Source: Syntrophomonas sp. DTU019 (GTDB lineage: Bacteria; Bacillota; Syntrophomonadia; Syntrophomonadales; Syntrophomonadaceae). From it: 64,000 nucleotides of DNA. This document shows, piece by piece, positions 16,068-51,800 of the stretch (positions are counted from its first letter, which is position 1; each line of letters opens with the position of its first letter). The stretch is taken from contig CAJYDM010000002.1 of NCBI GenBank assembly GCA_913757435.1, positions 62,001 through 126,000 on the forward strand. The letters run 5' to 3'. The notes under the pieces were generated by a model that was not told the origin of the DNA, did not search any database, and saw only the letters and a list, made by a program, of their open reading frames with translations. Position numbers and translations under genes: made by a program.

Positions 16068-16079
16068 GGCCAATCCCCT

Positions 16080-18253: not shown

Positions 18254-19846
18254 TCAAGAATCACTTGTAGTATCCTTATGATCTGGCATTCTGCAATCAA
18301 CTGGCAGTGAATCTGACCAGGGTAGCAAGCTATTTATGGTTGCAGAATCTTGCGTATTTACATTGGGTAAGTGTTCAAACAGATAAACAAGGTAATTGTA
18401 GGGCTTCAGATTATTCTCCTTAGCCGTTTCGATAATGCTGTATATGATTGCACTCCCCTTGGCACCCCTGGGGGTGTTTGAGAATAGGAAGTTCTTACGT
18501 CCAATAATAAACGGCTTAATCGAGCGCTCCGCCCGATTGTTATCTATCTCCAACCTACCATCCAGCAGGAAGTGGTTTAAATCATCCCATTGATTCAAAC
18601 AATAAGTGATGGCCTGACCAAAGGCGCTCTTAGGCAGAGTTTGTTGCCGCTGTTTTTTGAGCCAGGTGTAAAAGTCGTCGAGCATCGGCTTACTTAACTC
18701 CAGCCGTTTTTCGTAACGTTGCTGACTGGATAGCTCTTTCAATTGTCGCTCAATAACAAATAATCGATTACAGTAATCTAAACCCACGCTAGCTGCCACT
18801 GGCTTGTCTTTCTGCTCAGTAGGCAATGCCTTTAGTGCTTCGGTAAATTTCCTGCGTGCATGCGCCCAGCAGCCAACCAGTGTCACACCAGTCAGTTTAC
18901 CATAGCCACTGTAGCCATCGGTTTGCAGATAGCCCGTAAATCCAGACAAGAAACTGTTCGGATGTTTGCTGGCTCTAGTTGTCTGGTAATCATACAGAAC
19001 AATAGCTGGCCCATCCCTTCCGGTTCGGTAGAGCCACATGTAGGACTTGGATTCGGCTAAACGGCCCGGTTCTTTCAATACTTGCAGGGTTGACTCGTCA
19101 GCATGCAGGATATCCCGCTGAAGCAGCTGCTCATGCATTCGGTCATAGATTATCTTAAGCCAGGGATCGGCGGCATTTAGCAACCAATTTGCCATGGTCT
19201 GGCGTGACAGATCAATACCCAGACGCGAAAACTGCTGTTCCTGACGGTACAAAGGCAGACTGCTGGTGTACTTTTGATCCATTATGTAAGCCAATATGGA
19301 GGGGGAAGCCAGGCTGCCCGGTAATATTGGCTTGGGCATTTCAGCCTTAATTATCGGTGTCGTAATGTTATCTGTTTCGCACTGACGGCAAGCATATATG
19401 TATTGGACATGTTTGACGACTGAAACCTGGGCCGGTATGATCTTAAGTTCCTGCCTGACCTGAGTGCTCATCTCATGCAGGGCACACTTACAGCTTGGGC
19501 AGAATTGCTCGTGTTCTTCAAGACGGTATTCGATAACTTCAACCGGCAGGTCCTTAAGCTTGTCTTCTCTCTGACCGGCCTGCTTTTTCTTGCGCTGATA
19601 TGTGATCGTTTCCACGGTCGGCTCTTCAAGCTCGGGGTTCGCACTATCTTCAGCTTCATTAAACAGGCTGATCTGCTCTGGAGTGGTCTTCTCACTAGAA
19701 GCACCGAACTGCTTTGCACGGCTCAACCGGAACTGTTCCTCATACCACTTTAATTTGGCATTAAGCTCAGCAATTTGTTGGTTCTGTTTAAGTATCTCAG
19801 CATTGAGTTGTTCAATTATCAAGTCCGAATTTTCTTGCATATCCAT
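18254..19846 (-). CDS. tnpC: IS66-family transposase TnpC
   Basis: 530 residues. Leucine-rich N-terminal coiled coil (NAEILKQNQQIAELNAKLKW), a Cys4 zinc-finger-like segment (CPSCKC...CRQC), then the DDE core with Asp in LHADESTLQ, Asp in QTDGYSGYG and Glu in DNNRAERSIKP. Length is normal and it appears intact. The start is weakly supported; an ATG two codons later is equally possible. Confidence 0.95.
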   Translation of the reverse strand: MDMQENSDLIIEQLNAEILKQNQQIAELNAKLKWYEEQFRLSRAKQFGASSEKTTPEQISLFNEAEDSANPELEEPTVETITYQRKKKQAGQREDKLKDLPVEVIEYRLEEHEQFCPSCKCALHEMSTQVRQELKIIPAQVSVVKHVQYIYACRQCETDNITTPIIKAEMPKPILPGSLASPSILAYIMDQKYTSSLPLYRQEQQFSRLGIDLSRQTMANWLLNAADPWLKIIYDRMHEQLLQRDILHADESTLQVLKEPGRLAESKSYMWLYRTGRDGPAIVLYDYQTTRASKHPNSFLSGFTGYLQTDGYSGYGKLTGVTLVGCWAHARRKFTEALKALPTEQKDKPVAASVGLDYCNRLFVIERQLKELSSQQRYEKRLELSKPMLDDFYTWLKKQRQQTLPKSAFGQAITYCLNQWDDLNHFLLDGRLEIDNNRAERSIKPFIIGRKNFLFSNTPRGAKGSAIIYSIIETAKENNLKPYNYLVYLFEHLPNVNTQDSATINSLLPWSDSLPVDCRMPDHKDTTSDS

Positions 19847-25315: not shown

Positions 25316-27313
25316 TTACAGGAATGCTCCAATATTAGGGGAATTCTTTATACTGTTTTCAACTTCCTGGTAGCTGGTAAAGCCTACCAGGGTATTACCG
25401 GTCTTAATATTAAAATCAATATCGGGCAGGGGTTCCAGTTCATTTGCTTCTTCAACTTGGGCTACCAGTTTCAGGAATAGACGCAGTTTGCATATTTCCA
25501 CCGCTTCCGGCATAATGTCTACCCCATATAGGTTTTGTACGATAATTGATTTTAATATGGAATAACGCCGGTTACGATGACGTTGATACAGCTGGATAAT
25601 CTCACGAAAATCTTGTAGTTTGTCAGCTCTACTTCCCTTTTCCTGAGTCTCTTCCAGCAAGAAAAGCATCCGGTCCAGACAAGCTTCATATAAAGGTTCC
25701 AAAATGTTTAAAGCCGCAAACAGGAAGGCACCCGAGCCGCAGGTCGGATCAAGAATACTCATTCCGCGCTGATAGGCTTCATTAGATTTGCGAGGTATTC
25801 TGCCAGCTAGAGTATAATAAAAAGCGCGAATTAATTGGGGGTCATCACTATTTTCAATGACATCCTGGGCAAACTGACGGATATTGAGATTGTAAGTAAT
25901 CAAATCATTGATAGATTTTATCTCACCCGCCTGCATTTTCTCCATGATTTCAGCACAACGCTGACGACGGGTTATCACTTCGCGCCATATTTCTGTGGGT
26001 AAGGCATATTGTTCAGGAGCCAATGTGTTCCATCCACCTCGAAGGGAAATGTCATTAATACCCTTGGCTATATTTTCCGGTAGTTCTAATTCCATGCCCT
26101 TTAACATGGGCGGATAAATATACCTCGCAGGATTTTCGGCTAAGATATTAAAGACACTATCATCACCCGAAAATGATTGGGGTAACTTACGCTGCACTTC
26201 GTCAAAGAGGAAGGGTATTATCGTGTTCTTGCTAATATATTCGGTGATGTCTTCCTTGGTATAGTAAGCCCCCATTTGTTTCTGGTTAATGTATTTTTCA
26301 AAAATGTACCCCAATATGTCCGGGTTGATTTCATTGCCCTCCACGATGGGCCGTTCATCCAAACGCCAGTTAAATCCTTCAAAGAAATTAAAAACATTCT
26401 CAAAGGCTTGATCTGCAATATCAATATCGGGAAAATTAATTTCTATTTCGTGCTTCATAAACAGGCCGCCGTTCAGATAGGGAACATCTCCCAATAATTG
26501 AATATCTTTAGGAGTTCGTTTATCCTTGGGGCAGGCAAAGCCGCCAAAAAATAGGGGCTGCAGAAAATGGCGATAATAAAGATCCGGACCATCCTGCTGT
26601 GATTGCCGCAGTCTATTATGCAGGTAATCATGATCATTGTCTAAACATCCGTTATTATCCCTGAATGCTTTCTTCTGAATAAAGTAAATAAACATCAGTC
26701 GATTCATCATTACGGAAGAATACCAGCTTAATTGCTCGTCAGGCAGGCCATTAATAAAGGACATGAAAAGCTCACGTTGCTTTTTAAATTTATCGTAGAA
26801 ACTGCGGGTAACCTGATCCTCCAGAGCGAAAGCCTGATCGACAGTTTGGGTGGCCTGAATTATGGTTATTTCGGCATCTTCCATAAACTGCTCCATGGTA
26901 AAAGTTATCGCATTCAATTTCTCAATTAGTAGCGTTCCGGAACGACCTTTAATGTGTTTGATTTCTCGACAGACTTCAGGCTTTCCCGTTTCACGGCGTA
27001 CCCGCTGCCATATTTGCTCAGTTTCAGCCTCATCACAGAAGATTATCAAGTGCTCCATCTTTTGTTTGGTCAGCTGTTTCTCGATGGCCCGTCGTATCGG
27101 TCGTACAGGGATAATGCCTTCCGCATTGGGTGAGCAACGATAAACCACTAATCCCTGGCCATCAGCTACTGGATGAAGGTGATAATTCTCACTATTTATA
27201 TTTAGACTTATATCTTCTTCGTCACTATAATTCCAGCCAACTTCTTCTATAAAGAGGTCTTCAAATGCAAATGAATCCAGATATTTTTTGACGCGATCAG
27301 GATTAAGCTGCAT
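25316..27313 (-). pseudogene. Eco57I/PglX-like adenine methylase, N-terminal part (split by IS110)
   Basis: 665 residues. After an N-terminal region of about 300 residues, the methylase core shows the MGAYYTKEDITEYI segment, motif I ILDPTCGSGAFLFAALNIL and NLYGVDIMPEAVEICKLRLF, ending in FNIKTGNTLVGF shortly before the IS110 element. Motif IV (NPPY) lies on the far side (22164-23507). The family makes N6-methyladenine; members act alone as type IIG enzymes or in BREX/DISARM-type systems. The start codon shares its A with the helicase stop (TAATG), so helicase and methylase formed one operon. Confidence 0.88.
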
Positions 27314-35169: not shown

Positions 35170-37239
35170 CTAGGAAGTCAATACCCTTAGCGCGGAAACT
35201 AAATCCCATGCTTCCCAGTACCTGCGGTTGACCCTCTCCACTTCCCTCTCAACCCCCAGCCACCCCTTAACCTCATCGATCCGTGCCTTAAGTGGCAGTT
35301 TTTTATTGGCCGCCGGGCGGGAGAGTTTATTCTCTAATGAACTGAGGTTTTCCACGATGTCCTGATGCAGAGCAGTTGCAGATATCTTGGTCAACCAATC
35401 TGGTTTTTCGCTTACAAGACCGGGGAATCTCAAGTAAATATCGTTACATTCTGCTATCTGCAGATTGGCTTGCCGTCCTGCCTGTTTAGCCAACATATTG
35501 ATCAAGATTTTTGTTCTTCTGCCGCCAAAATGAAACACATAAGTTTCATTCTCGGTCTGAACTATTGGCCAAACATCGTCGGGAATATCAAGAAAGTATC
35601 TCAAGGCCTGGGCCTGGTTGCTGCTGTCCGGGCCTTCAAAGCCCACATAACCCCAACTGGCTTCCTCCTGCGCTTTCTTCTGCTTGGTAACCAGCAGCCG
35701 GTTGGATTCGATGCCTTGCACCTGCAGTTTCTTACCTCCGGTTTTAAGCCCTTTGCCCTGGCTGTATCTGACCCCGGAGGCGATCCTTTCCCCGGTGGTG
35801 GCATCTACCACTTGGTAGCCGCCTTTGTCTTCGATATTGCTATGGATGAATCCAGTTCCCATGCGGTCTAACCAGAATCGTCCCAGTTTTATTCTGCCAT
35901 GGTCATTGACCAGTTCGCTTTCAGTCACCAGGGTATCTAACAGGCCTTGCAAGGGTTGGCCGGGCACACACTCATTGATCAGCGATTGTATTTTCTCGAG
36001 GCTTCTATAACCTTTCGGTGACTGAAATATGTATGAAGCCACTTGCTGGCGGGCCACAGCGTAGTGTGGCCCTGGGACATTATCGCCCAGGAACCCGTAT
36101 CTAGCCGCCTCCAGCATGGCGGAATTTATCAAAGCATCCTTTTCATTGCTGGCACAGAATAAGACTCGGGTCTTATTAGTGCGGCGGTTGCCGCGCCCGA
36201 TGCGCTGCAAGAGATCAGACACATTTGGGGCGGGGCCGTTTAACACCACTAAATCGATATCCCCTATATCTATCCCCAGCTCCAAAGTAGAGGTAGCAAA
36301 AATTATCACCGCATCTGATTTCCTGGCAATTTCCTCGGCCTGTTCGCGGATGTGCTGGCTCAAGCTGCCGTGATGGGCCAGGATTTCATAGCCATGGTGG
36401 GTCAGCTCTTCCCTCATGGTGTAGGCCAAATAGTCCACATCTTTCCTGGCATTGCAGAACACCAGGATTTTTTCTTTTTGGGGCTCTTTTGCTATGTAAG
36501 TTAATAGACTGTCTATTAGTCGTTTTGGTTCTTGGGGTGAGGCAATGCATTCTATCTCTCTTTTACCTTTAACCACAACCGGCTGGCCACCGGGAATGAA
36601 GGCTTCTAAGACCAATTCCGGGTTGTTTATGGTAGCGCTCAGCCCTACCACCTGGATAGCCTGGCTGCGGCACCAGCCTTTTTCCCGGGCCTGCTTTTTA
36701 AGTTTCCTTAGGCGCTGCAACAGCCACCTGACCTGTTCGCCACGGGCACTCCCATACAACAGATGGATCTCGTCGAGCACAATAGCGACCGTATCAGCCA
36801 GTATATGCCCGTGTGCAGTTTTGCCCCGGCACAGCAAGGAGTCGAATGATTCCGGAGTGGTGAGGATCACCTGGGCCCGCTCACAGGCCATATCATGATG
36901 GTCTCCGGTCCTGCGGGCCACGGTTAATCCCAATTCCTTTAAAGCATCGGCCAGCCGGCCATAAAGGTCATTTACCAAGGCCCGCGTCGGTGTGACATAG
37001 AGGATTTTCCACGGGGTGATTCGGTCAATGTTCCGTTCCACCAGAGGGGCGCACACCGCTTCGGTTTTGCCGCTGGCGGTAGCCGAACAGAGCAGGATGT
37101 CGCGGCCTTGGCTGATTACCGGAATGGCCGCCCGTTGCACTGCGGTCAACCGTCCGAACCTGCCGAAGAATGCCGACCAGGCCCGGGGCATGCTGGCTGC
37201 AAGCTGACGATCCAGTTTAAGATCAGGATCAATTGCCAC
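35170..37239 (-). CDS. Lhr-like SF2 DNA helicase of the triple-ATPase operon
   Basis: About 689 residues. Helicase domain 1: ATASGKTEAV (Walker A, near residue 52), VTPTRAL, DEIHLLYG (box near 156), LSATINNPE. Domain 2: LAHHGSLS, ATSTLELGIDIGDIDLVV, LQRIGRGNRR. The C-terminal 250 residues are an Lhr-like extension. It resembles the helicases (BrxH) that accompany BrxD in BREX-like loci. The GTG at 37239, with GGGGAGG upstream, gives an 11-bp overlap with the preceding ATPase gene; a longer start at 37269 is possible. Last gene of a five-gene operon. Confidence 0.85.
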   Translation of the reverse strand: MAIDPDLKLDRQLAASMPRAWSAFFGRFGRLTAVQRAAIPVISQGRDILLCSATASGKTEAVCAPLVERNIDRITPWKILYVTPTRALVNDLYGRLADALKELGLTVARRTGDHHDMACERAQVILTTPESFDSLLCRGKTAHGHILADTVAIVLDEIHLLYGSARGEQVRWLLQRLRKLKKQAREKGWCRSQAIQVVGLSATINNPELVLEAFIPGGQPVVVKGKREIECIASPQEPKRLIDSLLTYIAKEPQKEKILVFCNARKDVDYLAYTMREELTHHGYEILAHHGSLSQHIREQAEEIARKSDAVIIFATSTLELGIDIGDIDLVVLNGPAPNVSDLLQRIGRGNRRTNKTRVLFCASNEKDALINSAMLEAARYGFLGDNVPGPHYAVARQQVASYIFQSPKGYRSLEKIQSLINECVPGQPLQGLLDTLVTESELVNDHGRIKLGRFWLDRMGTGFIHSNIEDKGGYQVVDATTGERIASGVRYSQGKGLKTGGKKLQVQGIESNRLLVTKQKKAQEEASWGYVGFEGPDSSNQAQALRYFLDIPDDVWPIVQTENETYVFHFGGRRTKILINMLAKQAGRQANLQIAECNDIYLRFPGLVSEKPDWLTKISATALHQDIVENLSSLENKLSRPAANKKLPLKARIDEVKGWLGVEREVERVNRRYWEAWDLVSALRVLTS

Positions 37240-38569
37240 TGCTCCTTGACCTCCCCGGACCGTATTCATTATCCAGAACCGCCATATAGTATTTGATGAA
37301 AGCCCGCACCAGATCGGTTTGGTCGCGGCTTTCCAAGAGCATCTGGGTTTTGTCTATCAGACCCTGGTCATAACTGGCTGCTATCTGGTAAGTGGATTGA
37401 TATAGGGTATAGATACTGTTGGCCAGTTGCTCTTTCTGGGCATCGGACCAGGGGTTGAGGAAATACTGTTTACCACCGCCGCTATCCACCAAGTTTTCAA
37501 CCCAGGGGTCGCCCTTGTGCCCGTCCTGGCTAACAGCCCCAATAAAGATGGCTAACGGGGCTGGCGGAATACGGAAATCCTGTGAAACGTAGTGTTCCAA
37601 AACGCTGATTAACTCTCTGGCCTTGGCCCGGTCTGAGGCGCTTAACATGCGATGAGCCTCAAATTCATCAATAGTGATTACTAAGCCCTTATAGCCTGCG
37701 GCCTTAGCCAGTACGGCATGCCCGGCCAGAGACATTATGAACATTATGAATTTATCGCGGGCTCCTTTGGCTACCATCGGCTTGAAGTTGATTTGCGCCC
37801 GCTTGAGGTTGGTTTCCATAGCCAAATCGGCTTTGACCTGGGTTGCGCTGACATTCTCGCTGCCAGCTAAACATTCCTCCAAAAGGTGAGCCAAGCCTTC
37901 GATTTGCTGGCTGGTTTTCAGTTTGCGGATGAAATCGAAGTTTTCGGGAAAATAGTCTAAGTCTTTTAGAGGTTTTGGTATGGAGTCATAACCATTTTGC
38001 ATGGCTTTAAGATAAACATCCAGCAAGGGCATCTCTATGCTTAAGTCCTTGCCTTCAAGGGATAACCAGATATTATACAACAGCCTCTGCGGGGCCGAGA
38101 AATTATTACTCTTGCCGTCGATCTCTATTTTAGCCGCCAAATAGCCCTGATCCAGGGCAATCTGTCTGACCAGGGCCATGGTATGACTCTTTCCGGTGCC
38201 AAAAGGCCCGCATATTTCGTGAATACGGCATTTCCGGGCGGGAAGGCAATTTCCGATCCATCCCGCCATATCTTGGTATCCCACCGTTAAGAACTCCAGG
38301 TGGGATTCCGGCACCAGACCGAAGCGTAAGGCTTCCAGGGCTTTGACTTGCTGGAATTTATCCATATCCACAGCCGCTCTAACCGGTGGCGACATTTCCG
38401 GGATGTCGTTTTCCTCATCTATGGCGGCGATGTTGTCATAGGATTGTTTAATAGTCAACCCGGCGGGAGAGACCAGCTTGACCAAAGCGCCATCACCGGT
38501 CAGTTTTACAATTATGGCTTCTCCCAGTTGTTTGACCAGGACTTTCATGCCGGTGCGAAATCCCATCAT
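37229..38569 (-). CDS. BrxD-like (DUF2791) P-loop ATPase 1
   Basis: 446 residues. A beta-rich N-terminal region of about 60 residues precedes the ATPase. Walker A is GPFGTGKSHT (residues 121-130), Walker B is LVITIDEFE (Asp301-Glu302), and a sensor region IFIGAVSQDG follows. It belongs to the DUF2791/BrxD group of BREX ATP-binding proteins, thought to couple ATP hydrolysis to DNA transactions with a helicase. It is the most diverged of three paralogues in tandem. Two bases separate it from the upstream gene, and it overlaps the helicase gene. Confidence 0.8.
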   Translation of the reverse strand: MMGFRTGMKVLVKQLGEAIIVKLTGDGALVKLVSPAGLTIKQSYDNIAAIDEENDIPEMSPPVRAAVDMDKFQQVKALEALRFGLVPESHLEFLTVGYQDMAGWIGNCLPARKCRIHEICGPFGTGKSHTMALVRQIALDQGYLAAKIEIDGKSNNFSAPQRLLYNIWLSLEGKDLSIEMPLLDVYLKAMQNGYDSIPKPLKDLDYFPENFDFIRKLKTSQQIEGLAHLLEECLAGSENVSATQVKADLAMETNLKRAQINFKPMVAKGARDKFIMFIMSLAGHAVLAKAAGYKGLVITIDEFEAHRMLSASDRAKARELISVLEHYVSQDFRIPPAPLAIFIGAVSQDGHKGDPWVENLVDSGGGKQYFLNPWSDAQKEQLANSIYTLYQSTYQIAASYDQGLIDKTQMLLESRDQTDLVRAFIKYYMAVLDNEYGPGRSRSSGN

Positions 38570-38571
38570 TC

Positions 38572-39798
38572 CTATACCTCATCTTCCTCAAGCGGAGATA
38601 CTGCGGCTGCGGCCTCCAAGGAGCCACGGTTGAGTATGTTTAACAGCAGTGTGGAGGTGCGTTTGGTCATCTCCCTGCGGCTGCTGCTGGATATGTCCTC
38701 TTCGATGATATCCGCTGCGATCTGGTTGATTTTATTGATGGCCTGGCTCTTATCAACGGCTAGTGGCATCCCGGCATGATCATAAAGCAAATCCGCCAGA
38801 CGATGGCCAATTTTTCTCAGTTCTGCTTCCCGGTCAGTGGGTGCCGTTAGACTGATCAAGGCAGCGTAATCATTCCCGTCCATGAAGCCCTGTCCCGGGG
38901 GGGTGTCGATGCGCTGCTTTAAAGCCATGTATTGCATCATGCTCTGTACCACTTCATCGGTTAAGGCATAGACGAAAAACACCGCACCACCGGCCAGGTC
39001 GTTTATTACCCCGATATCGGCCCTTAATAAGGCCAGAATCTTTTGTATTTTATCTTTGCTGGTTTGCTGGAACCCGATGTCGGCTTCATCCAAGCACACC
39101 ACGGTTCCCTTAAATCCTGCATAGCGGATAAACTGGAACATGGAGAACATGGCCTGGCTGGCACATAGTTTCAATTCGTCACCTTTTACCGGCTGTTCTC
39201 CCAGACGACTGGCTATTTCTTTACTATCAAAGGCTCCCTCCAGCCACTGGCAGGCGGTCTTGAAACCGTCTTGATCTTCTTGGTCATAATACCTGACTGC
39301 CTTTTGGGCTACACGCGCGAATTTGTCCAACTTAAAATCATGGTCAGTGATGCCATTAAGCCAACCTTGAAAAGCTGCTTCGGCTGCATCGGGGTCAGGC
39401 AGCATACCCTGCACGTTCTTTGCAGAGGCCGTCAGCATTTCTCTCATGCCCCGCCCGGAAGAGTCGGGCATGCGCAGGTTGCGGACGATTTCCTTATAAA
39501 CCAGGAGACGGTTGCTATAATCCAGGTCTTTGTCCAAACTGACCTCTGAAGTGGCAAACCCCTGATTGGCCGCGATCTCCATCAGCTGGCGCAAGAAATG
39601 GGTTTTTCCGGAGCCAAATGGACCCACCACGAACTTCTCGGCTGATCCCCCGCGAACGGCAATGCGGTTTTGCAGATATACCTTATTAAGGCGCTCGAAA
39701 ACATTTTCATAGCCAACCCCGAACAGGCTGCAGCCCGCTGCCGGTGCCACCCCATTGGTAGCCATGGTCTCTAAAATGCCGATGTAATCAATAGTCAC
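38572..39798 (-). CDS. BrxD-like (DUF2791) P-loop ATPase 2
   Basis: 408 residues. Walker A is GPFGSGKTHFL (residues 59-69), Walker B is TVVCLDEADIG (Asp237-Glu238). Residues 1-35 (IDYIGILETMATNGVAPAAG) match the same N-terminal segment in the next paralogue, showing they arose by duplication. The GTG start at 39798 overlaps the previous stop (GTGA). Probably forms hetero-oligomers with its two paralogues; this is inference. Confidence 0.8.
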   Translation of the reverse strand: MTIDYIGILETMATNGVAPAAGCSLFGVGYENVFERLNKVYLQNRIAVRGGSAEKFVVGPFGSGKTHFLRQLMEIAANQGFATSEVSLDKDLDYSNRLLVYKEIVRNLRMPDSSGRGMREMLTASAKNVQGMLPDPDAAEAAFQGWLNGITDHDFKLDKFARVAQKAVRYYDQEDQDGFKTACQWLEGAFDSKEIASRLGEQPVKGDELKLCASQAMFSMFQFIRYAGFKGTVVCLDEADIGFQQTSKDKIQKILALLRADIGVINDLAGGAVFFVYALTDEVVQSMMQYMALKQRIDTPPGQGFMDGNDYAALISLTAPTDREAELRKIGHRLADLLYDHAGMPLAVDKSQAINKINQIAADIIEEDISSSSRREMTKRTSTLLLNILNRGSLEAAAAVSPLEEDEV

Positions 39799-40958
39799 CT
39801 TTCTCTCCCCCTTATCCGCTCCATCGCTAAGACAGCGAGCCCTTTCATCAAGTCCCGCTTGTAGCCGCTGCCGGCGTTTTGTTCGATTATCCTGGTACCC
39901 TGCTGGTTCATGGTCTCAGCCAGACCTTGGCAGGATGCGCCGCATTTTTCGACTACTGCACATAAGCGGCCAATCGACTGTTCCAGGAATAGCTCGGCTT
40001 CCCGAGCGGTATTGACTTGTTCCAGGCCTAAAACAGGCCAGCGCCAGGAACCATTTATGCCTTGATCTCTTACCATGGCCAGGCGCTGCCCCAGGGCTTG
40101 ATAGTGTATAATCATGGTTTCCAGGAATCCCGGCAGTATGGTAAAGACCACAATGGTGCGAGGCAGGGTGCCGGTTATGCACCCGTCCACCAGATGGCGC
40201 ATCAGATTAGCCGCATTTAGTTGCTTTTGGTTGGGCTTGCCGCCTTTAGGCTGAAATGATTTTTCATTCTCATCGAATAGGAACATGAAGCCAGACAGGC
40301 CTAATATGTTAAGGCTTTCAATGAGAGTCTTGATAAATGCTTCGGCATTGCGTTCATTTAAAGAATTCTTGACCCCATAAATACCGGCCCTTTTTAAGTC
40401 CGCTGCGGTTACTTTATCGCCATGCAGGAAAGCGCGCAGCAAATTCGCCTTAGTGGTGTTGCTATTACTCTGCTGAACGGCCTGAAAGATGGCGTTTTTA
40501 AATCCCGGATGGGGCATAGGGGTGGTTTTTAATTGCGCTAGGCCTTTCGCTCCCTGGCGGCCTAAGGAGGTCACGATATTAAACAATGACCGCACCGGTT
40601 CACCATTAATATTGGCCTGCATATTCTGGAGAATATATCGAGTGATGGCCTTCCAGTCCTCCAGGCGGAGGTCCGAGGACAGGTCGGTCCTTACTACTGC
40701 AAATCCTGCTTCCAAGGCCCGCTCTTCCAATAGTTTGAGCAGATGGGTTTTACCGGCTCCATATGGCCCCTCAAAAAATCGGCAGGTAGAGCCGCCACCA
40801 GCTACCAGGTGGTCGCATATCTCCTCGACAAAAAACCTCAGGTAGTGATCACTGCCAACATCAAAGACTGAGGCGTTGGTCTGTGGCGGTTCACCGTATT
40901 CAGCCATAGTTTCCAAGGCGGTTATTATAGCATCAGGAGTGACATCTGTTAGGTACAT
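39795..40958 (-). CDS. BrxD-like (DUF2791) P-loop ATPase 3
   Basis: 387 residues. N-terminal TPDAIITALETMAEYGEPPQ matches the paralogue downstream. Walker A is GPYGAGKTHLL (residues 64-74), Walker B is FMFLFDENEKSF (Asp229-Glu230), and TIVVFTILPGFL is a sensor-like strand. AAGGA lies eight bases before the ATG. It overlaps the next gene by 4 bp. Confidence 0.8.
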   Translation of the reverse strand: MYLTDVTPDAIITALETMAEYGEPPQTNASVFDVGSDHYLRFFVEEICDHLVAGGGSTCRFFEGPYGAGKTHLLKLLEERALEAGFAVVRTDLSSDLRLEDWKAITRYILQNMQANINGEPVRSLFNIVTSLGRQGAKGLAQLKTTPMPHPGFKNAIFQAVQQSNSNTTKANLLRAFLHGDKVTAADLKRAGIYGVKNSLNERNAEAFIKTLIESLNILGLSGFMFLFDENEKSFQPKGGKPNQKQLNAANLMRHLVDGCITGTLPRTIVVFTILPGFLETMIIHYQALGQRLAMVRDQGINGSWRWPVLGLEQVNTAREAELFLEQSIGRLCAVVEKCGASCQGLAETMNQQGTRIIEQNAGSGYKRDLMKGLAVLAMERIRGRER

Positions 40959-41018
40959 ATCTGATTTCCTTCTTGGTGCCGGGCCTATTCAAGTGCCTTT
41001 TGGCCTCGGCTGCCGTGG

Positions 41019-41894
41019 TCATCTCAAATTTCCTTCTTGCGCTTGTTTTACATAACAGATAAACCTGTATTCATTAGCGGCCTCCAAGCCGTTTACTACT
41101 ACCCCATTGCCTTTATTGACCTCGCTCATACTGCCCGTCTGCCAGGCTAGCTTGATCTCTGCAGGGATTTGGGATGTCATACTGCGGTACAGATCGAGGT
41201 TGTATAAAAAGGCGTACTTAGGGAATTCAACAAAGCGGTCCAGTTTAAGGTGAGGTTTTTTGGTTTCATACCTGCTTCTTACCAGGGCGATGCGAACCTC
41301 GCGGTAGAAATCATTAATTGCCACCAGCGATTGGTCCAGGCTGCGGGAATTCCTTTTGCGGGCTTCCACATAAGCCTCCCAGAATACCTTGGTCAACAAT
41401 TCAGGAGGCAGAGCGGCCTTCTCTAATAGCGTTAAGGCGGTCCCTTCGGCCTTTTGGATATCTTCCACAGAACCCACTGACTGCCACTTGGTCAGATTCT
41501 CCTGGTTGTAACAGAAGCTGATCATGGCTTGTTCAAAGTTGATTTGCAGCTCCAAGGGGCCGATCCGCCAGCCTTTGATAAACTCGCGGGTAGCTTTGCC
41601 GCTCTGCTGTGCGTCCCTGATGTAGGCAGAGATCAGGCGTTTAATGTTGTTGGCGCGATTATGGCGGGCAGTAGTGACAAAGGATTGCGCCTTGGTTTTA
41701 TAGGCTTGATAGTGATGAATGAACTCCGCATCATTGGGCATAGTCTGCAAGGCCTTATCTAATTGCGCTAAAGCCTGGGGGTCGGATGCTTTTATCTTAG
41801 CTATGCTTTCAAACCATTTGCTTAAACTTTTAGCTTCTTTCTGGATCTCTTTAAAGGATTGAGTTTCGTTGAAACCGTCTATATTCTCAGGCAC
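41019..41894 (-). CDS. Unrecognised first gene of the triple-ATPase operon
   Basis: About 291 residues, mostly helical, with no membrane segment or nucleotide-binding motif. The C-terminal part FPKYAFLYNLDLYRSM then IPAEIKLAWQTGS and AANEYRFICYVKQAQ is distinctive but I do not know the family. A GTG at 41894 has AAGGAG ten bases upstream; a TTG at 41924 would add ten residues. As the leading gene with an ATPase trio behind it, it could be the recognition or adaptor subunit; that is a guess. A 21-bp palindrome lies 85 bp upstream. Confidence 0.65.
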   Translation of the reverse strand: MPENIDGFNETQSFKEIQKEAKSLSKWFESIAKIKASDPQALAQLDKALQTMPNDAEFIHHYQAYKTKAQSFVTTARHNRANNIKRLISAYIRDAQQSGKATREFIKGWRIGPLELQINFEQAMISFCYNQENLTKWQSVGSVEDIQKAEGTALTLLEKAALPPELLTKVFWEAYVEARKRNSRSLDQSLVAINDFYREVRIALVRSRYETKKPHLKLDRFVEFPKYAFLYNLDLYRSMTSQIPAEIKLAWQTGSMSEVNKGNGVVVNGLEAANEYRFICYVKQAQEGNLR

Positions 41895-41978
41895 CTGGGG
41901 ACCACTCCTTACAAAAATATCCAAATGCGCTTAATCCACACTTTAGTAAAATTTTCTAGAAATAGTTACACAATTCCT

Positions 41979-43090: not shown

Positions 43091-45364
43091 CTAATCATCA
43101 TGTATCCTGAGTAGACCAGATAGGCCCGTCATTATATTACGTCTCGTTTTATTCTTGTATAGTTCTTTTGTAACTAGATTATATATGTCACTTGAGGACG
43201 AAAGCCTAAAAGCGTTTTCAATCAAATTATCTAGATCTGAATCGTCCCACTCATCTATTATGTTTTTAAGCGAGGTAGTGTTAATCTTTGATTTTGCAGT
43301 CTTAATCTCAACGTATTTTTGCAAAAGTTCCCGCTTCATTACGGTTTTGCCTTTCTCATAGGCTCTATCAATTTCTTCTGTGACTAACTGAATCAAGGCA
43401 TCTTTAGTGTCACCTATTTCATGGTTTGATACAGTGATATCTGGCTGTAGCGTTGTCGCTGCCTCTGCTCGATAAGCTTCGACTTCGTATTGCGCGATGG
43501 CTCTCTCCACCTCATCTATGGCAACTATCGAAAATAGATGACCTTCGATGTTTAAAACGGGCTGAAAGCTATTGTTGTTTATTAGGGTTTCTACATTCAC
43601 AGATTCAGCACCATCAATTTGACTCATTACTAACACTGAAAGTCTACTATTGTCCTCAAGCTTTTCCCTGCGTTCACCATCGATTCGATACTGGCGTAAA
43701 TGCAATCTGTAGGATTCCATTTTACCTACAGCCATGTCGACCTCTTGCCCTGTGGCAATGTCTCTAATATAGTTAATGAAATAATTTGACGCACCATTGT
43801 CCACTCTGGCTATCTGTCCCATATGCACTACTGGTGGAGCGTGATTAATTAATTCGTTATAGTTTAATATCTGTGATTTTACGGGAATACCACCTGCCTC
43901 AAGATTGACGGTGATCACCCCCGACTCATTATCCAAGCCCGGTATCAAATCGATTGACCTAGCCCCGGTTTTATCTATGTGTATTTGATAGATAGGTTCC
44001 CATCTTCCACCTTGTTTATCGAACACGATTAATGGTGCTGTCTGCCCTTCACCTTCCATAATGATCTGGTTCCTCTTAGCTTGTATCAAATTGGTTTTAG
44101 GGGTGATTAAAGTCCCGGCTTCAACCAATACAACTATTCTCTTGTTCTTATAGTCCCAGATCCCGTAAGTATTTTCACACAGGCGCTCGATCAGATCGCG
44201 ATATCGAGGTACCAAAGCTAAACTTTGAGCTAGTGTGCCATTGCCGCTGTAGTCATTTATTACTTCGGCATGACTAAAACATTCCTTGAAAAGTTTTGTA
44301 ATACAGGGCATCCGTGAACTGCCGCCGGCAAGGAATACCTTTTCAACAGGCTTACCATCGTTTATTTGCCGTAGTAGTGCTGTGATCTGTGTACGTATGT
44401 AGTCCAGGCCGGGTTTAAGGGCTGCCTCTAGGTCAGAACGTGATATGTTTATTTTGAGTTCTCCAAACCTGCAGGGATGCTTTAAAGTGGTGGTTGTTTT
44501 GCTTGAAAGGGATATTTTACTTTCCTCTATCGCATCCCACAGAGGGTAGTCCTCTATCTCTGAGGCTCTCTTGACCTCGTAACTCCTGGTCAGTTGCGGC
44601 ACGCGTTCTCCGACCCATTCCATCAGGTACTCATCAAATCGGTTGCCCGCCATATCGCATCTTATCTGGCTCAAAACCTTGATATGGAAATCCCCTTCGA
44701 TAGCTGTCAGGTCAAAGATGCACATATCCAGGGTTCCACCGCCGTGGTCCGCAACCATGACCCGCTGCGTACCTGACTGCTTGTAATCCAAACCGCAGCG
44801 CAGCGCTATAGCCAGTGGCTCAGGGAAAAGAATTATAGCATTTTTATCTGCTGCCCATTTAGCCCTTATCAGACTATTGATGATTCTTTTCCTTCCCAAT
44901 TCTGAATAACCCAGCGGCAGTCCTACCACTACTCGCTCAGCTGCAGCGAATTGACGTGACCGTTCATATAAATCCTTGAATATGAAATCCAATGATTCAA
45001 CCAGTTCATGCTCCTGATATACCCCACCCCCGCTCTTGGGAATTGGATGCCTTTTAACCTCCAACTGGTACTCAGGATCGTTGTTTATCGGAATCAAACA
45101 CTGTTCCATCTGATCATACTTAAACTGTGGTACTGCATTTATTATCCGTTTGATCGATACTTCTCCACGCGCTGATTGGTCAGCAGCCAGTTTGAAGTTG
45201 CGCAATTCTACACCATTAGATAACCGGGCTATCGTCTTGATAACCTGTTTATCCACTCTGGATTTTTCGTCCAGATTAATCAGTTGGGGTTCCTGTCTCT
45301 GATCTCCTGACCATCTTGCTACTGCGCAACGGGTGGTCCCAAAGTCAATACCTATAATAGCCAT
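43091..45364 (-). CDS. Divergent Hsp70/DnaK-like ATPase
   Basis: 757 residues. The actin-like ATPase domain shows IIGIDFGTTRCAVA (phosphate 1), VADHGGGTLDMCIFD (phosphate 2) and KVFLAGGSSRMP (adenosine motif). The C-terminal 350 residues are beta-rich and then helical, in the place of a substrate-binding domain, but diverge from DnaK and lack the usual linker sequence. It is the last gene of a four-gene operon, 22 bp after a gene whose C-terminus looks like a nucleotide-exchange factor. A housekeeping dnaK would sit with grpE and dnaJ, so this is a specialised chaperone. Confidence 0.85.
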   Translation of the reverse strand: MAIIGIDFGTTRCAVARWSGDQRQEPQLINLDEKSRVDKQVIKTIARLSNGVELRNFKLAADQSARGEVSIKRIINAVPQFKYDQMEQCLIPINNDPEYQLEVKRHPIPKSGGGVYQEHELVESLDFIFKDLYERSRQFAAAERVVVGLPLGYSELGRKRIINSLIRAKWAADKNAIILFPEPLAIALRCGLDYKQSGTQRVMVADHGGGTLDMCIFDLTAIEGDFHIKVLSQIRCDMAGNRFDEYLMEWVGERVPQLTRSYEVKRASEIEDYPLWDAIEESKISLSSKTTTTLKHPCRFGELKINISRSDLEAALKPGLDYIRTQITALLRQINDGKPVEKVFLAGGSSRMPCITKLFKECFSHAEVINDYSGNGTLAQSLALVPRYRDLIERLCENTYGIWDYKNKRIVVLVEAGTLITPKTNLIQAKRNQIIMEGEGQTAPLIVFDKQGGRWEPIYQIHIDKTGARSIDLIPGLDNESGVITVNLEAGGIPVKSQILNYNELINHAPPVVHMGQIARVDNGASNYFINYIRDIATGQEVDMAVGKMESYRLHLRQYRIDGERREKLEDNSRLSVLVMSQIDGAESVNVETLINNNSFQPVLNIEGHLFSIVAIDEVERAIAQYEVEAYRAEAATTLQPDITVSNHEIGDTKDALIQLVTEEIDRAYEKGKTVMKRELLQKYVEIKTAKSKINTTSLKNIIDEWDDSDLDNLIENAFRLSSSSDIYNLVTKELYKNKTRRNIMTGLSGLLRIHDD

Positions 45365-45385
45365 CCGTATCCCCCCATCGTCCAG

Positions 45386-47719
45386 CTATTTGACCATAGC
45401 ATGCCTAACCAGGGTACCATCGTTCATGCAGATGCCTGGAAATATTATTTGTATCCCGTCACCGGGTTGAAGGTCCTGATTGCTTCGATGTATTGCTGGA
45501 TCAAAACCCGAGTTGGAAGCACCAATTTCAGTTATCAATCGGCCACCGATAGCGTATATCATCTCTGCTATACAGGCCTGTACGGCCTGCTGTGCATCTA
45601 TCGGCGCTTCCTGGAGGCATATAAAGGCTCTTTCGATATTTAGGCTTATGCCCATCAGGATTCGCAAATTCACCTGATACTGTAGTGGGATGAATGACTG
45701 TAGGTTCTGATGATCGAAAAGTACCTGTTCCCACGCCATCAGGTAGTCTTCTGGGTTGGCGATGTCTGTCGTTTCTGATTTTAGAACAGTATCCAGCTGC
45801 TGTTCCTGACTGACCAGGATGTCCTCAACTATCGAAAGGCAATCCTGAAAATATCCGCCTATATAATCTGCGGTTGCGGGGTGGCATTGGTTTGCGCAAG
45901 CGGTGATGTGAGCTATTGATTTATTGATTCTATTTAAGCACTCGACTCGATACTGGCGCAATTCCCCGGACAATTGAGATCGTTGCATATCTAGATTCGA
46001 GCGCGCCTGATTTAAATAAGATAGAAAAATAATGGCTGACGAAGGCCAGTTGATTTCTATAAGATGTGAATAAGCCTTTCGGAAGCCTAAATCCGCCATA
46101 CCCAATCGGGTGAAAAATATCAGTCCGGATAGAAGGTCTGCACTGCGGCGCAACCAATCATCCATGATGTCTGCAGACAGATCTGTATATTGGTGCAACT
46201 GCTCTGATTGCGGAATTTCCAGGTCATAACCCGGCTTGCTATAGAACTCGTTGAGAGCGGTTGCCAGTACATGTCGATAGTTTGATGTTACCGGTTTACT
46301 TTTCTGAAACAACTCTATGCTGTCGGGACGGGCTCGTAATTCTCTGAGAACAGCATCGTGGAGTGAACGATCGTGAGTGTATTCGGTATAGACGGCTAAT
46401 TTCTCCAACAACCATACCAGATCAGACACGCTGTCCAATTGAGGCGTGAAGCGATCCAATGCCTGAATCAAAATATTGGGCACTGAATCGGGACTCCGTT
46501 TGTGCAGATCCTCCAGCAATGCATCACGTTTTTTGCAACGGTGCAATACAGGAACTTCGCGGCCGCCGCTATAGCCCAACAACTCTAGATACACTTCAGC
46601 GCGATCTTGCCAATGGTCGGCCAGTTCCATATACAGGGCAGTTCTCTTTACAAAATCCTCTGTCTTGGCAGTTGGCAGTAATTTTGAGCGAAGCAGGAGT
46701 CTTGCCGCTCTGACTTTGGCTGATATAGAACCTGTTTCGAATGCTTTTACCAAGGAGTCTTTAAATATGGGTATGAGTTCGTGATGCTGCTCCAAATGCC
46801 GTATCCCATTCTCCAAGTTAGAGGGGCTGCTGAACAGTTTTCTGATTACCTCATTACGTACCTTTGGCGGAAGAACTGCAAACAATTGCTGCTGCTCGAT
46901 GCAACTCAATTTGCATACACTGTCGATGAGAACTTTATCTTTTATCCCCGCCCCAAAAAATGCCAATATGGTCGTACAATATCTCAAAATGGACGCAGAC
47001 ATTTTGGGCTTGGGCTTGGATTTCGATGGGGCAAGAAGACTCAATGCATGATTGCGCGCCTGTTCTTCAAAGGCAGGGTATTCTTTCAACACTTTGAGCC
47101 AGCTCAGTAATTCATTGATAGATAATTGTGCCAGTCTGGGATGCAGGTCTTCTATAGAAAAATCTTGTATGGCTTGAAGTGAAGGAGTATTGGTTTTCAA
47201 TAGTGCCAGAATATTATCTCTATCACCAATCTGAATTATCAGACCTTTCACCTTGCGGGCTAATTCCAGTTTACCTTTGTCAGGCTTCTTAGTTGAGGCC
47301 AGTTTATTCTCGATTTCTTTAAGGTTATCCAAATGAGAACAATCACCCAGTTTCTCACACGCGCTGAGCAGTGCAAGTTGACCGGCGGGCTCGGCGGTAT
47401 GGTACTTTTCCAGCAGAGGTGACAGCCATGCCGCATATTGTGAGTCCTTTAAACGTTGAGCCAAAATCCTAATCATAGGCCCTTTAGCATGTGACACCAG
47501 GTTAACATACTCTTCAAGATTGTTTTCCGCCAGAAGAGCATCGACTTGCTCCGCAAGTATCTTCTCCAAGCTTTGTGCTTCAGCTCTGAACAGGCTATTG
47601 AGCATTTCTGCTCCCATGGCTGCATTGAGTCCCTTAGACTTTGCCCATTCTTTATAGCTCTTATAAGAGAAAAACTCAATACATCGAGCAGTCGCATCCT
47701 TATCGTATCGCGTAGGCAA
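45386..47719 (-). CDS. Helical-repeat protein with GrpE-like C-terminal domain
   Basis: 777 residues. The first 600 residues are leucine-rich helices with HEAT/TPR-like spacing and no catalytic motif. The last 40 residues read GFDPAIHRSNQ, then GDGIQIIFPGICMNDGTLVR and HAMVK, closely following the end of GrpE (FDP..HEAV..., G....V..GY...dr.lRpA.V), preceded by an EMIYAIG helix as in GrpE. I infer it is a nucleotide-exchange factor for the Hsp70 encoded next to it. TTG start with AAGGGGG upstream. 22 bp separate it from the Hsp70 gene. Confidence 0.6.
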   Translation of the reverse strand: MPTRYDKDATARCIEFFSYKSYKEWAKSKGLNAAMGAEMLNSLFRAEAQSLEKILAEQVDALLAENNLEEYVNLVSHAKGPMIRILAQRLKDSQYAAWLSPLLEKYHTAEPAGQLALLSACEKLGDCSHLDNLKEIENKLASTKKPDKGKLELARKVKGLIIQIGDRDNILALLKTNTPSLQAIQDFSIEDLHPRLAQLSINELLSWLKVLKEYPAFEEQARNHALSLLAPSKSKPKPKMSASILRYCTTILAFFGAGIKDKVLIDSVCKLSCIEQQQLFAVLPPKVRNEVIRKLFSSPSNLENGIRHLEQHHELIPIFKDSLVKAFETGSISAKVRAARLLLRSKLLPTAKTEDFVKRTALYMELADHWQDRAEVYLELLGYSGGREVPVLHRCKKRDALLEDLHKRSPDSVPNILIQALDRFTPQLDSVSDLVWLLEKLAVYTEYTHDRSLHDAVLRELRARPDSIELFQKSKPVTSNYRHVLATALNEFYSKPGYDLEIPQSEQLHQYTDLSADIMDDWLRRSADLLSGLIFFTRLGMADLGFRKAYSHLIEINWPSSAIIFLSYLNQARSNLDMQRSQLSGELRQYRVECLNRINKSIAHITACANQCHPATADYIGGYFQDCLSIVEDILVSQEQQLDTVLKSETTDIANPEDYLMAWEQVLFDHQNLQSFIPLQYQVNLRILMGISLNIERAFICLQEAPIDAQQAVQACIAEMIYAIGGRLITEIGASNSGFDPAIHRSNQDLQPGDGIQIIFPGICMNDGTLVRHAMVK

Positions 47720-47751
47720 TTGTTAGTCCCCCTTATTGATCGGATAAAGCG

Positions 47752-48894
47752 TCATAAATAATCAGTTTCAGCGAGTAAACGTGTCATTTCTTCGGGTGTG
47801 CACGTTTTCATATGTGCAAGTTTATGTCTTAAATCTCTCAAGAAATGTAGACGTTCATAATCTGTAGCTTCAGGAATGTATAATCGCCGTTGGTCATTCT
47901 CATCCTTATCCTGTGTCAAATAAACTAGAGTGCCTAATTCAACATCATAGGGATCAGTAATATTTTCTCTATACTGTTTAATAGGCAGGCAAGCTTTCAC
48001 AACCACCTCATACTTCTTAATAAAAGCAACCCGCTCCTCCTCTATCAGGGCGAAGGCCACCATAAGTTGGGCTCTCCACAAGCGATGGGATAAGCTCTGA
48101 AGGTTATTGCTGCGCAGTAACGAAAACGGGTGTGGCTGGGTATTGGTTTGTTCAACGGTTCCTCTGTTTACCAGTATTTTGCCTTCATAATACAGGTTGT
48201 TCAGGCTTTCCAGAGGTGATGTGGTTTCGAAATCAGTGATTGAAATCAGTTCATCCGCCAACTCTGCGTCAGTTAGGCAGAGGTTGGCGGCTACATAACT
48301 TATATACTGATGGAGATGAATAGGAATATTGCTCTGAGATAAAACCATCAATGCAAACAGTTGGGTATCATAATGAGAAACATAATCATAGTAACGAATC
48401 ACCGAAACGTATTGGGGAAAACGGGCATCAGGAAAATAACCGGCTGCCTCTATGACAAAAGCCCCGTGTTCGTTAGTATCAGTCCGGTAATCCCGGCAAA
48501 TCGAAGCCCATTCTCCAATCTGATCTGCCGGTATCCCTTTAATCCATATGACCTGTCCAGAAAGAGCGCGCAACTTATGCAGATAGCTGAGTGGTTTGCC
48601 AAGATGGGGGCGATACGCGGCTACATCATTTCTTGATGCATATCGTTCCAGCAGGAAACTGCTTATGTCGCCGCCTTTAAACTCATCTTCCCAGTCGATG
48701 TAATCCACGACCAGACTACAGGTATTCTTGATCTGTTCCTCTATGGTATATCGCATTTCCCGGCGCCAGGGCATATCTGGATCGCTGATATATATTACCG
48801 ATCGACTGTTTGTCAACGCAGAACTAATTTCATCAACAAGACGCCGCGGCCCGGTAATCTGCGTCCACCAGATAACAGACGGATGTGAAGTCAC
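47752..48894 (-). CDS. Unknown protein with C-terminal HEPN-like Rx4H motif
   Basis: 380 residues. The N-terminus (ITGPRRLVDEISSALTNSRS, then VIYISDPDMPWRREM) looks like a P-loop-type fold that has lost its phosphate loop. A helical middle part follows. The C-terminus reads ERLHFLRDLRHKLAHMKTCT then PEEMTRLLAE; RHKLAH (DNA 47812-47829) fits the Rx4H motif of HEPN RNases, though with His where Asn is usual. The start overlaps the stop of the ATPase gene by 4 bp, so the two are co-translated. Effector role is inference. Confidence 0.5.
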   Translation of the reverse strand: MTSHPSVIWWTQITGPRRLVDEISSALTNSRSVIYISDPDMPWRREMRYTIEEQIKNTCSLVVDYIDWEDEFKGGDISSFLLERYASRNDVAAYRPHLGKPLSYLHKLRALSGQVIWIKGIPADQIGEWASICRDYRTDTNEHGAFVIEAAGYFPDARFPQYVSVIRYYDYVSHYDTQLFALMVLSQSNIPIHLHQYISYVAANLCLTDAELADELISITDFETTSPLESLNNLYYEGKILVNRGTVEQTNTQPHPFSLLRSNNLQSLSHRLWRAQLMVAFALIEEERVAFIKKYEVVVKACLPIKQYRENITDPYDVELGTLVYLTQDKDENDQRRLYIPEATDYERLHFLRDLRHKLAHMKTCTPEEMTRLLAETDYL

Positions 48895-51800
48895 ACTGAA
48901 GCCACCTCACTTTCCTCCAGCAAAGCACTAAGTACATCATCCTCACTGCCGATTAGCTGTAGAAAACTATTTTTCCTGAAACGAAACATTTTGGAATTCG
49001 GCTTGCTTGATAATATCCCCATATCAGCCATCTCATACAGAAGGGCTTCAAGATCCGATTGGCTTAAATCTCCGAGGTGCGGACTGTCAGTGTTTTCCCG
49101 GATATTCTTCAGGATATCATTTACATCATAGTACCCCTGCCACTGTGCATTTTCGTTGCGTTCGTCTTCGTAGTTCATAAAGGCGATCACATTTGCGATC
49201 ATCTTATAACGGGTATCCAGGTTCAAAGTCAAATGTAATTTGTCTTTTATGTTGTTGTTCAAGTCTTCCGAGGCAAAAATTGCCTTCATTTGATCATCTT
49301 TCAATATATAGGGAGGATTACCCCCGGTTACACTGTAATATGATTTATAATTATCGGATACTGACTGCACCAAAGTATAGCAGAAGAAATGGAGTATACC
49401 TGGATAGTAATTGGTGTTGGCCAATATGAGGGCTAACTGCTGCTCGCCCATCCGAAAACCCAGGTATGAAAGAGGTCGTTCCACTAGCTTTTTGGCATCG
49501 GCTGGAGACAGAGGCCTGATGCACAATGGAGCTCCTAATTGTGGCAATATGCCGTTATTATCCAGTGCACGCCTTGACCTGGCTACATTATGAAGTCCAG
49601 CCAGAACAAATTTGAACTGGTTTTTGGTCTTCCGCTTTAAATCCACAAAAGGCCACAGTACTGAATAATTATCCATAGAAGATTCACTCAGGAACTCATC
49701 GGCCTCATCGATAAAAAGGTACAATTGGACGATTCTTTTCTTGGCGAAATTACTTTCCAACTCTTTGCAGATTTCTTCTAAAGAGTGACAGGTCTTATCA
49801 ATCAGCCTCATATTTTCCAATGACTGGTTGAGGCGTTCGATCAGCTCTGATTGCCCTTTTTCCCTGATATCAATATAAAGTGCAAACTTTTTCTCAGCAG
49901 GTTGATGGGTGATGCTCCTTGCTCGTTCCAGCAGAGCAGTCTTGCCAAGCTGACGTCCGCCATAAACCAAACAAGTTCCCGTAGGCAATAAAATATCATT
50001 TAGTTCAGCCTTTCGGCCATAGAACATTTCATCTGCAATCGGTCCGCTCCCCTTCGAATATGGCTGGTAAAACGTGTAGGGAAGTGTGCATTTGAACATC
50101 GCTACCAAACGTTCTCCTGCGTCCAGTGTTGCCAGGTAGAGCATAAGCACACGATCAATAAGCAGAAACGCATTCTGACCACTGGTTTCTGCCTTAAACT
50201 CTTCGGCTACCTTCCGTCGTTCGATTAGACTCAATGCTCCATCCATCAGCACTATGGTATTTCCGCCTAATTGCAGCTTGTTAGTCATTATGTTTATCAG
50301 CTCGTTGGCACTGTTACTGCCGAACAGACACACCACATTTATGTAGTCATTCATAAGAGTGCCATTACTAGCAATGGGGTGAGGATAATCACGTAGATGC
50401 TTCTGAACGGGTGTTACATAGACCTTATAGTGGTTATATTTATCGCCTGCCTTTTCCAAAGGATGTCGTTCAGCTTTTACCGTATCAAAGCCTATATACT
50501 TCAAAAGATTGACTACCGCGTTGACATTGCCAGAATCATTTTTTCTTTTCGGCCAACTTCGAATAAACTGTTCGGAGTTCCTAATGTGGCGTACCGTCCA
50601 ATCAGGTTTCAAAAGAGATTCGATACTTTTGAATCCCCAATTACTCATGACATCGCCTTTATTCTTTTGCTGCTGACATATCTGATATAGCCGTTCATAT
50701 TTTTTTAGGAAAGCATCGTGATAATCGGTCTCTTTATCCACCTCGATCTCTTCATCCGGGATGCTAACCTCACCCTGTTCAAGCCTATTAAGATACTCTT
50801 CAGCCACTGCCAGATTTTGGTTTAGTAAGTGTTTTTCGATATTCTTCAATATGGGCGCGTTTTCGTATGTTAAACCGCCGCTATCTGTAATTTTACTCAT
50901 TCTGGCTACCAGGCTGTTTTCAAGCTCTTTGGTTTCTTTTTCGCTGTTGTTCAGGAGTATCTCTAGGAATGCCCTGTAATGGGCAATATCGCCGGCCGTT
51001 CTGAAATGATCACTCAACACGCATGCGGTATGGAAAATCGATTCCTTGGTGCTTTCCTGAATGCATCCATAAGCGTATTTTAACTCTAATTCGCTTTTAA
51101 ACTCCTCTTCATGTTTTTCAGCTAAATGCTGTGCAGCTATGTGGGTTTGACTCAGGTCATTAATAGGGTGCTCAGTTGTTTCATATAAATAAAGGTTCAG
51201 GTGTTCGGCGGTTCCATAGTTGCTGTACCAATTAGATTCATTGGGATCATCGATTAGTGCTATTGCCTGGAGGGGTTCGATTTTAGGAGAGACAATATGC
51301 CCCAGTATTCTTCTCCAAGGTTCAAATCCCGTTATGTCTTGCGTCCCAGTAATAATGTTCGGTTTGAGCTCCTTATTGAGGTTGATCTGATAGGAAGAAA
51401 GGAGGGCAATATATTCCCACTTCTCATGCGGTGAAATCCCGGCCTGCAGGTATCGATGCAACCTTTTCAATGTATGACTAAGCACGCACATCCCGGCCTG
51501 AACTGGCAATTCAAGGGAACCATACAAATCTACAAGCTGATAATAAACTGAATCAAGACCTCTCAGTAGTTGATTACGGGTCTTTTCCAATGTGCCAAAA
51601 ATCGTGTTTGGCAATATGCGAGAGTTATCGTCAGTAATCTCGAGCCATTCACAGACAACATCTAAACGCTTCTTAATCCCAAACTCGATGGTATTTCTGG
51701 GGCTGGATTTCAGAACCGGGGCTCTACCATTAATGGCTTTCCAGGTTTTGTCTATATAATCATTGATTCTTTGTTCTGAATAGGAAAAAGGATCCTCGTT

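Follow-up and report, generated by a model that had tools for sequence, protein, structure and literature searches.

A stretch of DNA from Syntrophomonas sp. DTU019 encodes three tandem BrxD-like ATPases and a helicase with no BREX core gene among them, which raises the question whether such an operon is a part of BREX, a form of some other described system or a machine of its own. The original prediction was that of a stand-alone DNA-processing or defence module in which the ATPases form a mixed oligomer. The comparisons described below suggest that the operon probably encodes an immune machine which has not been catalogued and which is a relative of Shango and of a part of BREX. Throughout the text, the window denotes the whole stretch of 64,000 nucleotides that was analysed, and positions refer to it.

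Organization of the operon

The operon extends from position 41894 to 35170 on the minus strand and comprises a leader gene, three ATPase genes (T1, T2 and T3) and a helicase gene, in that order (Table 1); inspection of the open reading frames revealed all five to be intact and closely packed. T1 and T2 share 4 bases (GTGA), T2 and T3 are separated by 2 bases, and T3 overlaps the helicase gene by 41 bases. The five reading frames had been described and placed correctly in the original prediction, the end point 41894 being the GTG that follows the AAGGAG ribosome site, and the P-loops quoted there are also correct, with GPFGTGKS, GPFGSGKT and GPYGAGKT belonging to T3, T2 and T1, respectively.

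Table 1. Features of the five-gene operon (window coordinates)
Feature	Coordinates	Strand	Description
Leader gene	41019..41894	(-)	291 aa from GTG; alternative TTG start at 41924 gives 301 aa
ATPase T1	39795..40958	(-)	BrxD-like AAA+, 387 aa; Walker A GPYGAGKT, Walker B LFDENE, arginine finger ALGQRL
ATPase T2	38572..39798	(-)	BrxD-like AAA+, 408 aa, GTG start; Walker A GPFGSGKT, Walker B CLDEAD, arginine finger ALKQRI
ATPase T3	37229..38569	(-)	BrxD-like AAA+, 446 aa; Walker A GPFGTGKS, Walker B TIDEFE, without arginine finger
SF2 helicase	35170..37269	(-)	699 aa; BrxHI/SngC/DpdJ group, Lhr/Ski2-like core; motifs ATASGKTE, DEIH and QRIGRGNR intact
Shine-Dalgarno-like AAGGAG	41905..41910	(-)	10 nt upstream of the leader GTG start (from sequence)

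All three ATPases score above the cut-off of 22.2 bits for the Pfam family BrxC_BrxD (PF10923), with 106 bits for T1, 106 bits for T2 and 53 bits for T3. At its N-terminus, T3 carries about 60 extra residues which are missing from the remote orthologues. DEAD and Helicase_C domains were identified in the helicase by Pfam. The dN/dS values between the window and a sister species (L003) lie between 0.09 and 0.18 for each of the five genes, indicating purifying selection. These values, and the retention of the five genes in other genera at 31-48% identity (as seen for the L022 and L005 proteins against the five of the window), show that the operon is not a chance array; a chance tandem of P-loops was rejected as a reading of the three ATPases.

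Distribution and mobility of the five-gene unit

The same five genes occur in the same order in ten genomes of anaerobic bacteria, that of the window included, which represent two remote lineages of the phylum and carry the operon at unrelated sites. Two loci from Syntrophomonas MAGs (L003 and L004) and L022 belong to the family of the window, and the remaining loci (L005, L047 and L072-L075) belong to a remote order; the T1 frame is broken in L075. The neighbourhood comparison across genomes bears out the proposed operon, as the three ATPases keep the leader and the helicase in one order in all ten carriers. Full-strength matches to T1 were obtained in only 4 of the 398 genomes of the phylum that were sampled, which shows the five-gene unit to be rare, and its spread beyond the phylum was judged from one scan of genome contigs with close-match patterns, in which two Syntrophomonas loci were found.

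Among the 13 genomes of the remote order, the operon lies between csrA and a flagellin gene in six and is missing from that place in seven (the names csrA, fliW and flagellin are our own reading of the sequences). Comparison of carrier L073 with non-carrier L076 revealed a 6.68-kb insertion, which consists only of the five genes preceded by about 180 bases. A sister species of the window (G255) lacks 6.4 kb between the positions equivalent to 41544 and 35162. The deletion scar (L048:5382-6342) retains about the first 127 leader codons, its flanks are conserved and the two genes downstream are the same as in the window, and the bases at the junction match neither flank of the window exactly. 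Taken together, the insertion and the deletion show that transfer needs nothing beyond the five genes and that the cell can dispense with them. As gain and loss involve precisely the five genes, the module is indeed a stand-alone one, as had been supposed.

The csrA-flagellin stretch is an accessory hotspot in the genus (L073, L075, L076, L081 and L082, with the same site in L047 and L077), where a PDC-S01 candidate defence ATPase, nucleotidyltransferase/HepT-like pairs and, in some species, the five-gene operon are found.

Relationship to Shango

BREX type 2 had been given as the known setting of an ATPase-helicase pair of this kind, which is right, but it is not the only one, since Shango has the same core (PMC10250203). 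This closest described system, with the same ATPase-helicase pair plus TerB, had been overlooked. Shango consists of SngA (TerB), SngB (a BrxD-like ATPase) and SngC (a helicase), and is a tested anti-phage system which protects Pseudomonas and E. coli against phages (PMC10250203).

The five-gene operon resembles Shango in the succession of a BrxD-like AAA+ ATPase and an SF2 helicase belonging to the same group, in the third, unrelated-looking gene that takes the lead, and in its compact build within defence islands. It might thus be a divergent Shango, in which the TerB protein has been replaced and the ATPase triplicated and the way of working has remained the same, a reading to which the shared order of roles (first gene, BrxD-like ATPase, helicase), the common helicase group and the experimental support for Shango itself against phages (PMC10250203) lend weight. 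However, Shango possesses one ATPase as compared to three here, and SngA with TerB_N/TerB_C as compared to the leader, which displays no match to TerB_N or TerB_C. PADLOC recorded no SngA in the window, 27-59 bits for SngB (the ATPases) and 225 bits for SngC (the helicase), as compared to 199, 626 and 754 bits, respectively, at a true Shango locus (L049). TerB_N was not found in any of the ten carrier genomes by a search that was positive in four Shango genomes, and the trees place the ATPases outside the SngB group and the helicase outside SngC. The missing TerB_N, the low SngB and SngC scores and the separate clades led to the rejection of plain Shango, and a divergent Shango with the same way of working also appears unlikely. 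No published description of the five-gene unit was found in the open-access papers searched.

Helicase kinship and defence setting

The helicase core is closest to antiphage SF2 families, the best PADLOC matches being BrxHI, SngC, again BrxHI, and DpdJ; the helicase of the window itself scores 263 bits with BrxHI, 225 bits with SngC and 92 bits with DpdJ. SngC, BrxHI, DruE and DpdJ constitute one SF2 clade defined by antiphage function in a published helicase tree (PMC12278908). In our helicase tree, the helicases of the five-gene loci group together in one clade (100/99), separately from SngC plus BrxHI.

The part of the window around the operon is a defence island, with a UG5-nitrilase reverse transcriptase, a fused helicase, a GmrSD_N protein, a IIG methylase and a DrmD/phospholipase-D-type helicase pair; the DRT UG5-nitrilase reverse transcriptase (12801-16073) scores 753 bits in PADLOC. 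Similarly, L003 adjoins GmrSD-like and NERD-helicase genes, and L022 adjoins SNF2 helicase and methylase genes. The csrA-flagellin site holds few other defence genes (the PDC-S01 candidate and the nucleotidyltransferase/HepT-like pairs), and the main support for the defence-island argument therefore comes from the Syntrophomonas group and L022. A defence role of the operon is made likely by its island context, its turnover and the kinship of its helicase, and an immune machine is probable as the cassette comes and goes as one unit, often beside phage-defence genes. Neither a methylase nor a recognised nuclease or other killing part is present in the five-gene unit, and the lack of the latter makes the effector step a guess.

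The same helicase core, being common to Lhr and Ski2/Brr2 enzymes, would also suit an accessory DNA-repair or replication-restart machine, in which the ATPases load an Lhr-like helicase at damaged forks, and the related two-ATPase loci L026 and L051 stand beside housekeeping genes as well. Evidence against such a machine comes from the patchy, all-or-none presence of the operon within one genus, from the deletion scar, from the defence genes that adjoin the loci of the Syntrophomonas group, L022 and the cousin L045, and from kinship to a helicase clade tied to antiphage systems (PMC12278908), and this reading is considered quite improbable as compared to the preferred reading of an immune module.

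Some other features of the window are worth recording. A single protein of 1604 aa (7613-12427) carries a DpdF/PsyrT-like SF2 helicase fused with a GajB/UvrD-like SF1 helicase. An IS66 transposase is encoded at 18254-19846, and the type IIG-like restriction-methylase (25316-27313) matches the first ~640 of 1100 profile positions and is apparently truncated. The next operon upstream on the same strand (43091-54272) encodes an Hsp70-like protein of 757 aa and proteins of 777, 380 and 1793 aa, the last of which displays a STAND-like P-loop region at its C-terminus. PADLOC named no defence system in this operon, which is possibly another uncatalogued defence operon.

Relationship to BREX

Within BREX, the closest named relatives of the five-gene proteins are BrxD and BrxHI. 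BREX type 2 (Pgl) likewise has an ORC/Cdc6-type BrxD adjoining the BrxHI helicase; BrxD has been interpreted as an ORC-Cdc6 ATPase with a possible role in loading BrxHI (PMC12839542). The present operon differs from BREX type 2 in its five genes without PglX, PglY/BrxC, PglZ and PglW, and in its three ATPases. None of PglZ, PglX, BrxC/PglY and PglW is encoded in the five genes that come and go together, PglZ being the one searched genome-wide. PglZ was not found anywhere in the genome in six of the ten carriers (G000, G256, G204, G366, G449 and G450), it is encoded elsewhere in the genome in three (G254, G448 and G445), and only a fragment below the cut-off was detected in G291. With PglZ missing in six carriers and below the cut-off in a seventh, homologous loci are not always accompanied by pglX/pglZ, and the description of the operon as one without BREX core genes holds.

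A pair homologous to BrxD and BrxHI is present, but the NCBIfam model BREX_BrxD gives 45-84 bits for the ATPases against a cut-off of 350. In PADLOC, T1-T3 score 44-85 bits with BrxD and the helicase scores 263 bits with BrxHI; a BREX type 2-like locus with PglZ (L062) displays 384 and 679 bits for BrxD and BrxHI, respectively. A decayed or auxiliary fragment of BREX type 2, needing PglX, PglZ and BrxC encoded elsewhere, would account for the kinship with BrxD and BrxHI and for the PglZ of three carriers, yet it is highly improbable in view of the six carriers without any PglZ, the transfer of five genes only and the scores far below those of L062; a BREX remnant was rejected for the missing PglZ and the low BrxD/BrxHI scores.

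ATPase motifs and related two-ATPase loci

In the ATPase tree, T1, T2 and T3 form one clade each, with supports of 100/100, 99/100 and 100/100, respectively, and all three lie outside the SngB/BrxD group. Judged from these sequences, T1, T2 and T3 are separate old clades, and the long branches in the ATPase and helicase trees make the deeper joins unsure.

The motifs are those of ORC/Cdc6-type AAA+ proteins. Walker A and an acidic Walker B are kept in all copies of T1, T2 and T3, and the arginine finger is kept in T1 (AL[GA]QRL) and T2 (AL[KQ]QR[IL]), which thus carry all three elements. T3 has the Walker motifs only, with no conserved arginine at the finger position in any of ten orthologues. 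The finger is kept in all the single-ATPase systems compared (SngB and BrxD). In heteromeric AAA+ loaders such as ORC and the clamp loaders, one active site is common to two subunits, and ORC and Cdc6-type loaders employ several diverged AAA+ subunits with asymmetric fingers to load a helicase. The operon resembles the eukaryotic loaders of this type in its several diverged subunits of one family and its asymmetric arginine fingers, with loading being putative here, and differs from them in the organism and in the helicase, which is MCM in their case.

A widespread and apparently unnamed type of locus (L023-L027, L050, L051, L053-L056, L058 and L064) encodes a leader of ~265 aa without a family match, followed by two BrxD-like ATPases. 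No published name was found for these loci. Their first subunit always keeps the finger (ALWMR[IL] or ALKLRI), mostly shows IDD or IDN at Walker B, and can have GSGRT as Walker A or have lost this motif (L053); the second subunit keeps GxxGxGK[TS] and DE, and has lost the finger in seven of nine cases. An SF2 helicase adjoins most of them and, where read, is PbeA/XPB-like and divergently transcribed. They resemble the five-gene operon in a leader followed by BrxD-like ATPases among which finger and Walker duties are split, and differ from it in having two ATPases, a helicase of another group and leaders that are only weakly alike.

One further locus (L045:6096-11127, genome G122) comprises four genes, encoding a leader-like protein, two ATPases (the first with a finger, the second without) and a helicase, whose ORF is short at the N-terminus and which groups with the five-gene helicase clade (100/99). 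It is flanked by a DUF1156-methylase/phospholipase-D-helicase pair on one side and a PD-Lambda-4-like gene on the other. L045 shares the leader-like gene and the helicase clade with the five-gene operon, differs in having two ATPases only, and is possibly an intermediate between the two- and three-ATPase forms.

The finger pattern, together with the sharper work-sharing in the two-ATPase relatives, makes a fixed-order mixed ATPase oligomer, which would load or gate the helicase, the best reading of the three ATPases. The mixed oligomer originally proposed is hence favoured by the finger pattern and by the co-inheritance of three old clades, and it stands as a prediction from sequence. The loss of the finger could also mean that T3 acts in a separate assembly of its own which needs no finger.

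The leader protein

No family match to the leader was obtained in Pfam, PADLOC or NCBIfam. Its orthologues are 88, 76, 40, 36 and 35% identical and always come first in the operon, and its C-terminal region is conserved (FYxExR ... KPxxK ... EFPKxAFLYNLDxYR). The weak likeness between the leaders of the five-gene and two-ATPase loci (E 1.4e-4 in a single comparison, probability 53%) is suggestive of homology. Structure predictions of the leader and T3, made with three close sequences each, gave a mean pLDDT of 36 and 37, respectively, and the models were not used. Searches of PDB sequences with the leader and T1 returned chance matches only, with no chain matching T1. In viral contigs, nothing related to the leader and a single short match to an ATPase turned up, and plasmids yielded no leader match, their sole ATPase match being a Cetobacterium Shango-like locus. 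The leader is a putative adaptor or sensor subunit.

Proposed mechanism and significance

The operon is rather likely to be a self-contained, mobile module that provides immunity against invading DNA, akin to SngB-SngC and BrxD-BrxHI, in which a three-ATPase assembly licenses the helicase. T1, T2 and T3, as ORC/Cdc6-type AAA+ paralogues, would form, on DNA, an asymmetric arc or ring with a fixed order of subunits, with T1 and T2 each lending an arginine finger to the ATP site of the neighbour. T3 would bind ATP and lend no finger, and for this reason it is proposed to mark either one end of the assembly or a joint that is inactive. The leader may recognise a substrate or partner, and ATP binding and turnover would load or license the SF2 helicase on foreign or damaged DNA, where it may block phage or plasmid replication through unwinding and remodelling. 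As there is no methylase in the unit, the distinction between self and non-self would depend on the structure or replication state of the DNA and not on a modification mark.

A bolder and more tentative proposal is that an ORC-style asymmetric loader has evolved for defence, in which a fixed-order hetero-oligomer of three ATPases, one of them fingerless, would load the helicase on invader DNA, and the leader would represent a new family of sensors. To our knowledge, what the ATPase contributes to the helicase has not yet been shown for BrxD-BrxHI or SngB-SngC in the known immune systems. The present operon offers the pair without methylase, PglZ or TerB, as a naturally minimal five-gene unit in which the ATPase is split into three specialised subunits. 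The loss of the finger in one named subunit, T3, also leads to testable predictions of the subunit order and of the active ATP sites. A class of hetero-oligomeric BrxD-like loaders is not named in PADLOC 2023 or NCBIfam 2026, and the five-gene and two-ATPase loci together suggest that such a wider class exists.
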